DNA from: a virus
DNA: 64,000 nt
Direction: 5' to 3' (one strand)
IMG/VR virus record: IMGVR_UViG_3300043410_001892
Span: 247,145 to 311,144 of that record
This document shows positions 118 through 26,920 of the stretch, in pieces. Positions within the stretch are counted from its first letter, which is position 1. The number at the start of each line of letters is the position of its first letter. A program made the position numbers and the translations under genes. The notes beneath the pieces are model-generated. The model made no database searches and was not told the DNA's origin. It worked only from the letters and a program-made list of their open reading frames with translations.

Positions 118-786
118 TTAGTCTTTGGAACTAAGGATGTTTAATAAACTTAAAAATAAGTTGATAAAATCCAAATACAAGTTCAATGCACATAACAGTT
201 CGGTATTAGTGTTTGCGCTATATCTGAGCATTTCTTGAGTTTTCTGAACATCGTATGCAGTAAAGCCCATAAACACAATAATAGTAATGCCACTAATAAC
301 TAAACTGAATACTGAACTCATAACAAAGATATTAATCAGCCCAGCAAAAATCAATGCAATTAAACCAACCATTAAAAAGTCACCCCATGATGACAAATCT
401 CGTCGTGTATAAGCACCATATACTGCCATAGAACCAAATAGCACTGCTGCACTGGACAATGCAGTAGCAACTGATTCAAACGAAGCCATTGCTATTGCTG
501 GCCCCATCATAACACCAATCATCGATGAAACGATTAAAAATCCAACATAACCAACGACTGAACTAGCATCATCGTTAGTTAAAAACCAAGCTAATAACAT
601 TATTGCAGGTAATGGTGCAAATATTGAAACCCAAAGCATAGGGCCGGTGTATAAGAAATGCATTAGTGCAGGACTGGCATAGACTGCTGCAACTGTCAAA
701 AATGACGTTAAGATTGATAAGAACACATTTTTATATACACGCACCATTGGTGTATATACAAGTTCTTTTTGTAAAGCTGATAACAT
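118..786 (-). CDS. Bax inhibitor-1 / YccA family membrane protein
   Basis: 222-residue integral membrane protein with about seven hydrophobic segments. The central GPAIAMASFESVATALSSAA and C-terminal FMGFTAYDVQ stretches are typical of the UPF0005/BI-1 family, whose members act as pH-sensitive ion (calcium) leak channels or protease-complex modulators in the inner membrane. The start is set at the ATG at 784-786 because AGGAG lies 7 bases upstream; an in-frame start 12 codons earlier has no ribosome site. It is the last gene of a tight cluster with the next two entries. BI-1 homologues in phages are of unknown benefit, and a role in delaying host death is inference. Confidence 0.8.
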   Translation of the reverse strand: MLSALQKELVYTPMVRVYKNVFLSILTSFLTVAAVYASPALMHFLYTGPMLWVSIFAPLPAIMLLAWFLTNDDASSVVGYVGFLIVSSMIGVMMGPAIAMASFESVATALSSAAVLFGSMAVYGAYTRRDLSSWGDFLMVGLIALIFAGLINIFVMSSVFSLVISGITIIVFMGFTAYDVQKTQEMLRYSANTNTELLCALNLYLDFINLFLSLLNILSSKD

Positions 787-787
787 A

Positions 788-1072
788 TTATTCTCCTTTA
801 TATTTAGGTTGTTGACCTGCACTTGCCATAATAATTTCTTTATTAGGTCCGCAGGAATAAAATTCTACTTCGTAAAGATCTCTCGCGTGACCTAAGTATG
901 TACACCCAAGAGGTTTTGAAATTGCTCGTCTTTGATCAGTGTATTTTACAGTATTAAATGTTAATCCTCCAACTACTGCTAACCCAACCATTACAACTGT
1001 TACTAATGCGGATTGAAATATCAGTCCGCCTAATACTCCTAAGAAAATTATTAGTATCATTGTTAAAATCAT
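788..1072 (-). CDS. Small membrane protein
   Basis: 94 residues. The first 45 are strongly hydrophobic (one long or two short membrane segments); the rest is a soluble tail with two cysteines (GCTYLG, YSCG). The start overlaps the stop of the uvsE-like gene (ATGA) and its stop lies one base before the next start, so it is translationally coupled on both sides. I do not recognise a family. Confidence 0.6.
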   Translation of the reverse strand: MILTMILIIFLGVLGGLIFQSALVTVVMVGLAVVGGLTFNTVKYTDQRRAISKPLGCTYLGHARDLYEVEFYSCGPNKEIIMASAGQQPKYKGE

Positions 1073-2468: not shown

Positions 2469-2497
2469 AAAAAGAAAGGAGCCTAAGCTCCTTTCTG
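2469..2497 (-). terminator. Intrinsic terminator of pmoC
   Basis: 10-bp hairpin AGAAAGGAGC/GCTCCTTTCT followed on the minus strand by T5, just after the pmoC stop. Confidence 0.85.
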
Positions 2498-2514: not shown

Positions 2515-3267
2515 CTACGCTAAGTTGGATTTAAGTAATTTTGAAATAGCTTGTACTTCAATATTTACCACACCTAATACACCTAAAGCAGCCCATCCAA
2601 AGAATACAAACCCGTAGTGTAATGGTGCTACGAATAGTTCTTCCATGAACCAGAAAGTGTGTCCCCATTCGTTTAATCCAACGTTTGGAAGAATCATAAA
2701 TGGCCCGATTACAGATACCATGTATTGTAATGGTAAGCCTTTTTGGTAGGTAGGCAAGCGTGTTTTAGCATATAAGAATGCTGCGACACCTGTGATGATG
2801 TAGATAGGATAACTTAGATAAAACTCAATAACATGACTTGGTGTAAAATCAGTATCACGGACAATCGTTTGATGCCATGTACCATCTTGTTCTGTAAAGT
2901 ATGAAGCACCGTAATAAATTGCAATACCATACATTACTAACCAAACCCAGTGTGTAAAATGTCGACGCAGTTCCTCGCGAGGTGTAATTGACATTACGTT
3001 GCGATCACGTGATTTCCAAAGATAACCCCATAATACAGAAGCGGTTAGGATTTCAAGAACCATTTCAATGTATAGGAAGTTCATCCAATATGTTTCAAAC
3101 TCTGGTGCAAATGAGTCTAAACCAGCAGACCATCCATAAACACCTTCATACCAACGGACCCACCCGTAAAATACAACGTACAACGCTGCACCTGCGAGCA
3201 TGTTTGTTTTGTTTAAAAGTGAAGCTTCTTTAGCTTCAGCTTTTACTGTTTCAATTGTAGCTGACAT
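2515..3267 (-). CDS. pmoC: Particulate methane/ammonia monooxygenase subunit C
   Basis: 250-residue polytopic membrane protein of the PmoC/AmoC family, a subunit of the copper enzyme that oxidises methane to methanol (or ammonia) in the host's intracytoplasmic membranes. The family's metal-binding triad is intact: Asp128 and His132 in QDGTWHQTIVRDTDF and His145 in TPSHVIEFYLSYP. Other conserved blocks are FETYWMNFLYIEMVLE and GPFMILPNVGLNEWGHTFW. The start at 3265-3267 has AGGAG 7 bases upstream; the upstream in-frame ATG has none. It stands alone, without pmoA or pmoB, with its own strong promoter, about 115-base leader and terminator, as expected for an auxiliary metabolic gene. Sequence alone does not separate methane from ammonia oxidation; methane is favoured by known pmoC-phages. 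Confidence 0.95.
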   Translation of the reverse strand: MSATIETVKAEAKEASLLNKTNMLAGAALYVVFYGWVRWYEGVYGWSAGLDSFAPEFETYWMNFLYIEMVLEILTASVLWGYLWKSRDRNVMSITPREELRRHFTHWVWLVMYGIAIYYGASYFTEQDGTWHQTIVRDTDFTPSHVIEFYLSYPIYIITGVAAFLYAKTRLPTYQKGLPLQYMVSVIGPFMILPNVGLNEWGHTFWFMEELFVAPLHYGFVFFGWAALGVLGVVNIEVQAISKLLKSNLA

Positions 3268-3390
3268 GTTGTTTCTCCTAAGCAAGGGAAAATAAAAACG
3301 AAGTGCAACACCCGTTACACTTCAACTCGAGTTAAAACTATTTATAATAAACTGAGTATTTTACTCTGTAAATATTATAAATTGTGTTAC

Positions 3391-3418
3391 ATTATACAGT
3401 AAAAAAATAATAAGTCAA
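3391..3418 (-). promoter_or_regulatory. Promoter of pmoC
   Basis: Minus strand: TTGACT, 16 bases, TATAAT, about 120 bases before the pmoC start. The leader contains a GAAGTG/CACTTC hairpin. Confidence 0.8.
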
Positions 3419-3435
3419 CAATTAATTTTACCAAT

Positions 3436-3609
3436 CTATCTTGGTGGGAAATCTTGCGGTGGAAGTGGATGTCCTTCATGTTTGTGATGTCTGGTATAAT
3501 GATGTTCTAAATTACCAGGTCTAATATAATCACGGTGGACAGGCTTTGAATCGCAGCCTGTCATTAAAAATACTGCAAATAGCAAACTAACGACTAGTAA
3601 CAATTTCAT
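3436..3609 (-). CDS. Small lipoprotein, histidine-rich
   Basis: 57 residues: lipoprotein signal MKLLLVVSLLFAVFLMTGC (lipobox LMTGC), then a short His/Pro-rich tail (HHYTRHHKHEGH) that could bind metal. Starting at 3609 gives a canonical signal peptide and a 23-base overlap with the end of clpP. Possibly an outer-membrane lysis or exclusion lipoprotein; function unknown. Confidence 0.6.
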   Translation of the reverse strand: MKLLLVVSLLFAVFLMTGCDSKPVHRDYIRPGNLEHHYTRHHKHEGHPLPPQDFPPR

Positions 3610-4168
3610 CGACAAGCCCATACATAACACTCTCTTCAGCACTCATAAAACAATCACGACTCATGTCTTGTTTAAGTTTTTCAAACGATTGTCCAGTGTT
3701 TTTTACATACACTTCAGTTAAATAAGTATTCAACTTTAATGTTTCTTCAAGTGCAATTTGCATGTCAATTGCAGTACCGCGTGTACCTGAACTAACTTGA
3801 TGAATCATGTGTCTTGCGCTTGGAAGAATTTTACGTTTACCTTTAGCACCTGAACTAGCAAGTAAACTGCCCATACTACATGCTTGACCCATAACAATAG
3901 TAGAAACATCTGGTTTGATAAAGTTCATTGTATCGTAAATTGCAAGTCCTGCAGTAACTGAACCACCTGGGCTATTGATAAAGAAGTGGATATCTTCGGT
4001 ACCTTGACTTTCTAAGAACAGTAACTGGGCAACAATAATACTTGAAGATTGTTCGTTAACATCTGTATCTAACATAATAATCCTATCTTTGAGCAATCGC
4101 GAATAAATGTCATAACTGCGTTCGCCTTTTGCTTCTTGTTCTACGACCATTGGGATTAAACTTGGCAT
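3587..4168 (-). CDS. clpP: ATP-dependent Clp protease proteolytic subunit
   Basis: 193 residues, full length for ClpP. The Ser-His-Asp triad is visible as Ser98 (GQACSMGS), His123 (MIHQ) and Asp172 (SRDCFMSAEE), with the N-terminal axial-loop region ERSYDIYSRLLKDRI. ClpP forms the tetradecameric chamber that degrades substrates fed by ClpA/ClpX. AGGAG sits 5 bases before the ATG. A clpS gene is found at 39 kb, so the phage may redirect host Clp proteolysis. ClpP-like head maturation proteases exist, but this one looks like a genuine ClpP. Confidence 0.95.
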   Translation of the reverse strand: MPSLIPMVVEQEAKGERSYDIYSRLLKDRIIMLDTDVNEQSSSIIVAQLLFLESQGTEDIHFFINSPGGSVTAGLAIYDTMNFIKPDVSTIVMGQACSMGSLLASSGAKGKRKILPSARHMIHQVSSGTRGTAIDMQIALEETLKLNTYLTEVYVKNTGQSFEKLKQDMSRDCFMSAEESVMYGLVDEIVTSR

Positions 4169-5200: not shown

Positions 5201-5419
5201 CTATAATCTATAAATAACTCTACCTTTATTAAGATCGTATGGACTGACTTCAATCTTAACTTTATCGCCTGCGATAACTCTAATTTTATGCCTTTTAAGT
5301 TTACCACTTGTGTAGCATACTAGTTCGTGATTTGATTGATCAATCACAATCCTAAACATATTCCCTGGTAATACTTCATTTACTTTACCTGTAAGTTCTA
5401 TTAGATCTTCTTTACTCAT
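5201..5419 (-). CDS. infA: Translation initiation factor IF-1
   Basis: 72 residues, the exact size of bacterial IF-1. Close family matches are MSKEDLIELTGKVNEVLPGN, MFRIVIDQ, TSGKLKRHKIRVIAGDKV and PYDLNKGRVIYRL, covering the S1-like OB fold that occupies the A site of the 30S subunit during initiation. GGAG precedes the ATG. IF-1 is rarely reported in phages; with GlyRS-like, Pth2, tmRNA and tRNA genes nearby it suggests interference at several steps of translation. Confidence 0.95.
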   Translation of the reverse strand: MSKEDLIELTGKVNEVLPGNMFRIVIDQSNHELVCYTSGKLKRHKIRVIAGDKVKIEVSPYDLNKGRVIYRL

Positions 5420-5461: not shown

Positions 5462-5788
5462 TTAGTGAAAGCTTCCTTGGAAACAATGGCGTAATTCATG
5501 CCCTAATGTCCAATAAGTTGTGTTTAGTGGTGTTAAAATGTAACAAGTATTGTTACGAAATGCATCTACGTCCCAAAATGAACAACCTTCAATTGGGTAG
5601 TTGTACCCATTGTATCCTCGTTTTTTACTTTCAATATTGCATTCTGCTTGAATGTCTTCAACTTGTTTCCAGGTCACCCGTGTTTTATCAGTAAAGTTTG
5701 ATTTTCCATCAAATTTATCATAGGGTGATTCACTAGCATAGATGTTAGCAATTGATAATACAAATGGAATTATAAATAAGCGTTTCAT
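5462..5788 (-). CDS. Secreted protein with HExxH-like metalloprotease motif
   Basis: 108 residues: signal peptide MKRLFIIPFVLSIANIYAS, then a small domain with four cysteines and a C-terminal TLGHELRHCFQG. HELRH fits the HExxH zinc signature, but no third ligand is obvious in so short a protein. AGGAG supports the start at 5788. Likely periplasmic; peptidase activity is inference. Confidence 0.6.
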   Translation of the reverse strand: MKRLFIIPFVLSIANIYASESPYDKFDGKSNFTDKTRVTWKQVEDIQAECNIESKKRGYNGYNYPIEGCSFWDVDAFRNNTCYILTPLNTTYWTLGHELRHCFQGSFH

Positions 5789-5818
5789 ACTAGCTCCTGT
5801 AATAAGTGTTAAACTACA

Positions 5819-5847
5819 ATTATACAATACTTAACGATATACGTCAA
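5819..5847 (-). promoter_or_regulatory. Sigma70-type promoter
   Basis: Minus strand: TTGACG, 17 bases, TATAAT, about 30 bases upstream of the secreted protein at 5462-5788. Confidence 0.65.
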
Positions 5848-6374
5848 GCAGTATTTAGTTCTTTTAATCTTGTAATCATGTCATGCAATAAAACCGGTCT
5901 AAAATCATGGTGTTCAACGCAAACATTGAGATATCTAGTATCTGGAACATCACCATTCATAACAATATTAGTATGTAAGTGTCCATGTAGTTGTCCAGCC
6001 CATCTATTCATCTCACAAGGGTGGATTGGAATATGGCTCATTATTACATTTTGTTGAACACAATAACCTCTAATGTCTCTAAAGTACGGTGTGTATTCAT
6101 TAAGTCTAAAGATATCGTGATTACCTTTAATAAGAATCATATCTTTACAGTGTAATCGTTCAAGAGTTTTTAAAGCTCTACGATTGATTGCAACATCACC
6201 TAAGATATAAAGTTTGTCAGTAGGTTTAACAGTTTCGTTAAATCTTTTTACAAGTTCTTCATCCATTTCCTCATATGAATCCCATGGTCGTACTGGTGTA
6301 CCATCTGGTCTTACAAAATTACAGATTCCAACATGTCCAAAGTGCGGATCGGACGTTACCCAAACATCTTGCAT
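5844..6374 (-). CDS. Metallophosphoesterase, short form
   Basis: 176 residues with SDPHFGH, LGDVAINR, KGNHD, SHIPIHP and GHLH motifs of the calcineurin-like phosphoesterase fold. This compact version is common in phages and next to nucleic-acid repair genes. It follows a P-loop kinase gene by 9 bases, a pairing that recalls 5'-kinase and phosphatase modules of RNA repair, but the substrate is unknown. AAGGAGG precedes the ATG. Confidence 0.85.
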   Translation of the reverse strand: MQDVWVTSDPHFGHVGICNFVRPDGTPVRPWDSYEEMDEELVKRFNETVKPTDKLYILGDVAINRRALKTLERLHCKDMILIKGNHDIFRLNEYTPYFRDIRGYCVQQNVIMSHIPIHPCEMNRWAGQLHGHLHTNIVMNGDVPDTRYLNVCVEHHDFRPVLLHDMITRLKELNTA

Positions 6375-7313: not shown

Positions 7314-7341
7314 ATTATACAGCGTAACACATAATTGTCAA
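7314..7341 (-). promoter_or_regulatory. Consensus sigma70 promoter
   Basis: Minus strand: TTGACA, 16 bases, TATAAT. It drives the 7281-5844 unit and overlaps the start of the divergent HNH gene. Confidence 0.8.
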
Positions 7342-7661
7342 TGAATATTTACATGAAACCTAGAGATTTTACAATCATACTTAAAAGAATACAGCAATCT
7401 GCTAAACGTCGCGGAATTGAATTTGATTTAACTACTACAGACTTAGATGATATTGGAATTCCAATTACCTGTCCTATATTAGGAATACCTTTAAAATGGC
7501 ATAACGGAAAAGCTGAAGATGATTCCTATTCGATTGATAGAATAGATTCAGAGAAAGGATATGTAAAAGATAATATACAATTTATGTCTTTTAAAGCAAA
7601 TCGCGCCAAAAATAACTTAACTAGCGCAGAATTAAAATTACTTAGTACATATTATAAGTAA
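7341..7661 (+). CDS. Small HNH-type endonuclease
   Basis: 106 residues, one of the few plus-strand genes. The central part reads CPILGIPLKW, then DSYSIDRIDSEKGY and DNIQFMSFKANRAKNNLT, the phage HNH/EndoVII-like arrangement in which the DR-(I/D)-DxxKGY strand replaces the first His motif. It is probably a mobile nuclease gene: it interrupts the strand bias and has no visible ribosome site, so the start (7341, or 7353) is uncertain. A bidirectional terminator follows. Confidence 0.65.
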   Translation: MNIYMKPRDFTIILKRIQQSAKRRGIEFDLTTTDLDDIGIPITCPILGIPLKWHNGKAEDDSYSIDRIDSEKGYVKDNIQFMSFKANRAKNNLTSAELKLLSTYYK

Positions 7662-26472: not shown

Positions 26473-26493
26473 AAATCCTCCTAACGTATGTTA

Positions 26494-26519
26494 TGAAAAA
26501 GCACCCCGGAGGGTGCTTA
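26494..26519 (-). terminator. Intrinsic terminator of the tmRNA gene
   Basis: Minus strand: GCACCC-TCCG-GGGTGC hairpin followed by T5. Confidence 0.8.
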
Positions 26520-26915
26520 GTTGTATTTTGGTTAACAAGGCATACATGCCCCGGAGGGGTAGGTTATTAAGCTACCATGTCAGCTGCTTCCAAAGAGAAG
26601 TCAACTGTCATATACTCGAATTTAGATGCTTTTGCGTCTATAAGTTTTGCGCTGTTTAGGACAGTCACCTCACCTGTTGCCGTCTCCATTATCTCACCCA
26701 ATCGAAACCATGACAGCCCCATTATAAAACACACTAGCACTTCCCTTTTAGGGGGCAGGAAGTTTATGGCTATGGCCCCACTCTAATACCTCTAATGTGT
26801 TTTATGGTGGAACTGGGGGGAGTCGAACCCCCGTCTTGAATGCCTTCACTTTGAAGGAATTACAACAATAATAAGAACACTAATAAATCTAATGTTCTTA
26901 TTATTATTTAGTATG
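26520..26915 (-). ncRNA. ssrA: Circularly permuted tmRNA (ssrA) with a 27-residue tag
   Basis: Reading the minus strand from the promoter: a 12-bp AATAATAAGAAC hairpin; the tRNA-like 3' end GACGGGGGTTCGACTCCCCC then CAGTTCCACCA (about 26831-26805); an 80-base linker closed by TAAAACACA/TGTGTTTTA; then the tmRNA 5' end GGGGCTGTCATGGTTTCGAT from about 26720. The acceptor GGGGCTG/CAGTTCC joins the two pieces. The tag frame starts at GCA (26648-26650) and reads AKLIDAKASKFEY...ADMVA, ending in TAA TAA (stop 26567-26569). The order 3' piece, linker, 5' piece is that of two-piece tmRNAs. It rescues stalled ribosomes and tags their products for proteolysis. Confidence 0.9.
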
Positions 26916-26920
26916 TGTAC

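Follow-up and report, generated by a model that had tools for sequence, protein, structure and literature searches.

A lone pmoC gene in a large T4-related phage: a late promoter box, a leader hairpin, and group I introns in the pmoC genes of its relatives

Introduction

Phages that carry a gene for subunit C of particulate methane monooxygenase have been described from freshwater lakes (Chen et al., 2020; PMC7674155). They carry a lone pmoC without pmoA or pmoB, with intact copper ligands and divergence concentrated at the termini, and they include a T4-related myovirus class with genomes of more than 300 kb, a pmoC of gammaproteobacterial type, and Methylobacter as the predicted host. In transcripts from Lake Rotsee, the pmoC of related phages was expressed together with structural genes; in four phages the gene was fragmented, and LR_6 showed little transcription of the stretch separating the pieces (PMC7674155). 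A second system of interest is the psbA gene of cyanophage S-PM2, which contains a group I intron accompanied by the free-standing endonuclease F-CphI, an arrangement termed "collaborative homing" (PMC6083498).

The DNA considered here, a stretch of 64,000 nucleotides referred to below as the window, is part of a virus record of 372,173 bases that contains one pmoC, a gp23 major capsid gene (318 bits), and a gp55-like late sigma gene (E 2.5e-7). A search of this 372-kb record with PmoA and PmoB of Methylobacter marinus gave no match, a result to be read with the absence of a positive control among five records and the possible incompleteness of the record in mind, and pmoA likewise had no match in the viral loci scanned. 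With pmoC on a phage genome that has no pmoA or pmoB match, the virus is a pmoC-phage, and the published examples agree with the initial annotation, which had regarded such a gene as expected rather than novel.

The pmoC Gene and Its Product

As the initial annotation had proposed, the gene is real: it encodes a protein of 250 residues on the minus strand (2515–3267, with its ATG at 3267 and its stop at 2515), and PF04896 (AmoC/PmoC) is the sole Pfam match of this protein (404.5 bits). Residues 9–247 align with positions 6–244 of the 245-position profile, meaning that the match is full-length. A ribosome-binding site, AGGAG, can be read at 3275–3279 (-), 7 nt upstream of the ATG, and the TTG start at 3285 given in the list of open reading frames is therefore unnecessary. 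The terminator claimed earlier is also present as an intrinsic terminator-like hairpin 3' of the gene (2473–2496, minus strand), with a 10-bp stem, a 4-nt loop and a T tail, and the description of pmoC as a single-gene unit is supported.

The CuC ligands Asp128, His132, and His145, which had been pointed out before, are all found, and a second metal site that had gone unmentioned, the CuD site formed by Asn199, His203, and His217, is complete as well. Alignment to the Methylococcus capsulatus chain 1yew_C has an offset of 28, so that these residues correspond to Asp156, His160, and His173 and to Asn227, His231, and His245 of the M. capsulatus protein, respectively. The best solved relatives are the C chains of the pMMO structures 6cxh and 7s4l, and the alignment spans all 250 residues. 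The gene belongs to a known kind and is probably functional.

The surrounding genes include a ClpP-family protease (3587–4168, minus strand) as the upstream neighbor, translation factor IF-1 (5201–5419, minus strand), a Bax1-I family membrane protein (118–822, minus strand), and UvdE. A related ClpP-family reading frame also precedes pmoC in the viral loci L008 and L012, in which the gene order 5' of pmoC is similar to that of the window. Several other features of the region were noticed in passing. The phage encodes a permuted, two-piece tmRNA (window 26476–26918, minus strand) that matches the permuted and betaproteobacterial tmRNA families, the latter match contrasting with the gammaproteobacterial host indicated by pmoC. 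A small endonuclease-like reading frame (window 7335–7661, plus strand) of the PHROG endonuclease/Endo VII type, the class of F-CphI, lies on the strand opposite to that of its neighbors, some 4 kb away from pmoC. Just outside the window, a 171-residue reading frame about 4 kb from pmoC contains a second, short Gp23-like match (20.7 bits, record position 245218–245385, minus strand), and the same is seen in the record of L001.

We consider it likely that this pmoC serves a large T4-related phage as a functional auxiliary metabolic gene, expressed late via TATAAATA and supporting methane oxidation by the host. The host would be a Methylobacter-like methanotroph, and the full PmoC, with both metal sites, would probably join the host PmoA/PmoB complex, such that methane oxidation, which supplies energy and reductant, would be kept running while host expression falls. 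However, a lone extra PmoC could also act without joining the host complex. It might even alter or dampen the host enzyme, for instance by taking the place of host PmoC or by binding metal, and the carriage of subunit C alone would be compatible with such a role, as would the distribution of residues absent from all 21 host sequences compared, which occur only at positions 2–21, 90, and 247–248, almost wholly at the N- and C-termini, where a partner or a regulator could act. Nevertheless, every metal ligand and the core are conserved, which points to a subunit that works, not one that poisons the enzyme, and we regard dampening as unlikely.

Group I Introns in the pmoC Genes of Related Phages

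Several viral pmoC matches are stretched over about 1 kb for 250 residues. The inserts responsible are group I introns, as whole-record searches with Rfam RF00028 gave 64–105 bits against a cut-off of 50, and every intron-bearing record tested has a match above this curated cut-off. In total, 12 introns of 249–261 nt without open reading frames were found in eight distinct loci, at eight sites in phage pmoC (sites are numbered here on the residues of the window PmoC). Single introns interrupt the codon of F220 in L008 (5659–5916) and that of F205 in L012 and L018 (5615–5863 in both), and lie at A214/P215 in L021 (5643–5893), at G45/W46 in L039 (5130–5382), and at G129/T130, between two of the CuC ligands, in L215 (4388–4648). 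L040 has two, within F207 and at G224/W225 (5596–5844 and 5898–6149), and L043 has four in one gene (1540–1790, 1804–2052, 2076–2333, and 2364–2612), at G202/H203, within F207, at A214/P215, and at G224/W225. Six of the eight sites fall within residues 200–226, mostly in the stretch coding for the CuD site, an accumulation with a probability of about 4e-5 under uniform placement.

The 5' exon ends in U in all 12 introns, and the intron ends in G in 11 of them, the exception being the L043 intron at site 202. A possible P1 helix of at least four pairs with a U.G pair at the splice site can be drawn for all 12, although a single P1 match is within chance (0.06–0.32 each). In-silico splicing gives complete PmoC proteins, and once the introns are removed none of the close relatives has lost a metal ligand; such a loss would have counted against the initial annotation. 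Looking for the 3' end of the introns with an exact DNA pattern proved too strict, as it matched one contig only. The window pmoC itself is intron-free: RF00028 has no match in the window or in the whole record, and a profile built on the introns finds none in the window. The same profile finds no such intron in 80 host pmoC loci.

It might be argued that the split genes of the relatives are decaying pseudogenes or assembly errors, since the unspliced frames reach a stop soon after the insertion, the L043 intron at site 202 does not have the usual terminal G, and the published C-terminal pieces were expressed less than the N-terminal pieces (PMC7674155). This is very unlikely in view of the RF00028 matches, the nearly invariant exon and intron ends, and the full reading frames regained on splicing; in addition, the exons downstream of the introns encode protein that remains 88–98% identical, most of the changes falling at third positions, and the identical structure recurs in separate contigs.

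A reading frame resembling a homing endonuclease of the GIY-YIG or HNH type adjoins pmoC in seven of the eight intron-bearing loci. Those of L008 (6029–6913), L012 (6020–6673), L018 (6021–6674), L040 (6303–7100), L043 (2753–3562), and L039 (4143–4862, a weak match with E 0.002) are on the minus strand, and that of L215 (5101–6084) is on the plus strand. Such neighbors also occur at some intron-free pmoC loci. A systematic scan detected them at six of eight intron-bearing loci versus eight of 44 other loci (p = 0.003), but its search seeds came from intron-bearing loci and it missed the L040 neighbor, and the association between endonuclease neighbors and pmoC introns is therefore only suggestive.

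Similar elements were seen outside pmoC. In two related phages, group I introns lie apparently within tRNA genes that look, judged by eye, like tRNA-Leu and tRNA-Asp (L222 1681–1874 and L224 1421–1623). In L225, a weak group I match is located at the end of a DnaK-like reading frame (about 2278–2580), on a contig that also has a pmoC intron.

Overall, spliced introns in otherwise intact genes remain our preferred reading. It is quite likely that small group I introns have a hot spot in the pmoC of methanotroph phages, with eight sites that mostly fall in copper-site codons, that these introns spread with neighboring homing endonucleases, that genes taken to be fragmented are really spliced, and that transcription of the gene starts at a late promoter of phage type and passes through a structured leader specific to phages. 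On this reading, the allele of the window is uninvaded. Being uninvaded, the window pmoC would be a natural target for such introns.

Expression Signals Upstream of pmoC

The octamer TATAAATA is the late promoter box of phage T4, and its sigma factor is gp55. It is located at 3339–3346 (-), 71 nt upstream of the pmoC ATG. Among the viral loci, the exact octamer is found upstream of 37 of 54 unique pmoC genes, usually 60–110 nt before the ATG, versus 32 of 399 other reading frames in the same loci (p = 2e-22), and it accompanies PmoC of both the alpha and the gamma type, in flanks that seem unrelated apart from it. With a conserved upstream place and a gp55-like sigma in the genome, the TATAAATA of pmoC is by its sequence a predicted T4-type late promoter. 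The exact octamer was rejected as the late promoter that this phage uses generally, because it is not enriched before the phage's own structural genes, with one sense and two antisense occurrences in the window and the 100–150 kb structural stretch alike; the case for the late box therefore rests on conservation across phages. The shorter ATAAATA is modestly enriched before the structural genes of this phage (nine sense versus four antisense occurrences) and ranks first or second among its permutations.

The consensus promoter on which the initial annotation had relied, a sigma70-like TTGACT-N16-TATAAT at 3391–3418 (-), does exist and is the best of 11 promoter-like matches in the region. However, shuffled sequence yields 11.7 such matches, and the site is therefore weak when taken alone; among 19 unique leaders that go with the same type of PmoC, a strict sigma70 match recurs upstream in six. 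The element common across the phages is instead the T4-type late box, so that late timing is better supported than the plain high expression that had been claimed. The published co-expression of related phages' pmoC with structural genes (PMC7674155) fits late expression. A gp55-like sigma would thus transcribe pmoC from 3339–3346 late in infection, with transcription by the host polymerase from the sigma70-like site possible earlier.

Between the late box and the ATG, the leader contains a hairpin (3299–3324, minus strand) with a stem of 10–11 bp and the tip AAC-GGGU-GUU. The same tip, on different compensating stems, occurs in L007, L008, L010, L014, L021, L036, and others, where it lies about 50 nt upstream of the ATG; among phage pmoC leaders the tip AAC-GGGY-GUU is fixed and the stem covaries. 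Changes on both sides are seen in five of ten pairs, and the covariation score is 0.627 versus 0.261 in shuffles, for a small set of six distinct rows, some of them related; sliding the pairing abolishes the signal. No further copy of the hairpin turned up in 675 kb of viral and 533 kb of host sequence. It is absent from the 80 host pmoC loci, whose leaders differ, and the idea that it was copied from a host pmoC leader was accordingly rejected. The T run that follows the hairpin in the window means that it might end transcription instead of aiding expression, but a mere terminator is not favored, as the hairpin is retained in L014, L021, and L036 but has no T run after it there. Folding of the short leader into this phage-specific structure probably serves message protection or translation control.

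Evolutionary Placement and Selection

In a tree of 63 sequences, the window protein belongs to a set of 12 made up of phages only (support 97/80), which is nested among PmoC of freshwater Methylococcales. Purifying selection is strong: comparisons of the window gene with those of other phages or of hosts give a dN/dS of about 0.03–0.05, at dS of 0.5–1.5, showing selection that preserves the function of the protein.

These values bear on the possibility that pmoC is a host-derived passenger without function for the phage. Phages can acquire host genes, and the window PmoC has kept about 92% identity with host PmoC; yet neither a dN/dS near 1 in the phage clade nor frequent frameshifts are seen, the low ratio holds at considerable dS in a clade of phages only, and in place of the host leader there is a late box of phage type together with a leader hairpin seen only in phages. 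A passenger is thus highly improbable.

The phylogenetic check called for by the initial annotation places the gene with the gammaproteobacterial methanotroph type and not with AmoC of nitrifiers. An ammonia monooxygenase subunit C marking a nitrifier host, to which the NCBIfam model AmoC_BACT (NF041641; 397 bits, cut-off 319) would point by outscoring the combined methane/ammonia model TIGR03078 (358 bits), has next to no probability and was rejected, because NF041641 also gives 390–410 bits on methanotroph genomes, the nearest solved structures are pMMO chains of methanotrophs (512 bits), AmoC chains reaching only 232–244, and L243, whose best solved match is the AmoC chain 9leg_C, is far from the window in the tree. 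Because NF041641 outscores TIGR03078 on PmoC of the methanotroph type, automatic naming would nevertheless call the product an ammonia enzyme.

Implications

If expression from a late phage promoter under strong selection holds true, phages add to the methane oxidation of their hosts during infection, which would matter for the methane that lakes release. The late box and the leader hairpin provide sequence handles on the timing and manner of pmoC expression. The intron reading turns "fragmented" phage pmoC from presumed broken into probably functional, and surveys of viral metabolic genes will be affected, as gene callers will miscount intron-bearing pmoC. The pmoC introns also provide a counterpart outside photosynthesis to cyanophage psbA with its paired intron and endonuclease. 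A search of the literature, covering few subscription journals and preprints, returned nothing joining group I introns with methane monooxygenase and nothing joining pmoC with a late promoter; a 2026 paper in which the words "pmoC" and "intron" both occur concerns tRNA introns.

Comparison With Known Systems

The window phage shares with the pmoC-phages of Chen et al. (2020; PMC7674155) a lone pmoC, a large T4-related genome, intact ligands, and divergent termini. Promoters and introns are not mentioned in that work, and the late box, the leader hairpin, and the intron reading are added here, the first two being new facts on the window gene and the introns a new fact on its relatives. Such introns probably explain the "fragmented" phage pmoC of 2020, as splicing would account both for the fragmentation and for the low transcription between the pieces in LR_6.

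Phage T4 late promoters have the identical octamer TATAAATA, and a gp55-like reading frame is likewise present in this genome; the difference is that the exact octamer is rare before the structural genes of this phage, where ATAAATA is commoner. Finally, the pmoC of the relatives, rather than the window copy, resembles psbA of S-PM2 in being a host metabolic gene in a T4-type phage with a group I intron and an adjoining endonuclease, while other phages hold intron-free alleles. Unlike psbA, with its one insertion site, pmoC has eight and up to four introns per gene, and the putative endonucleases are GIY-YIG-like or HNH rather than of the Endo VII type of F-CphI.
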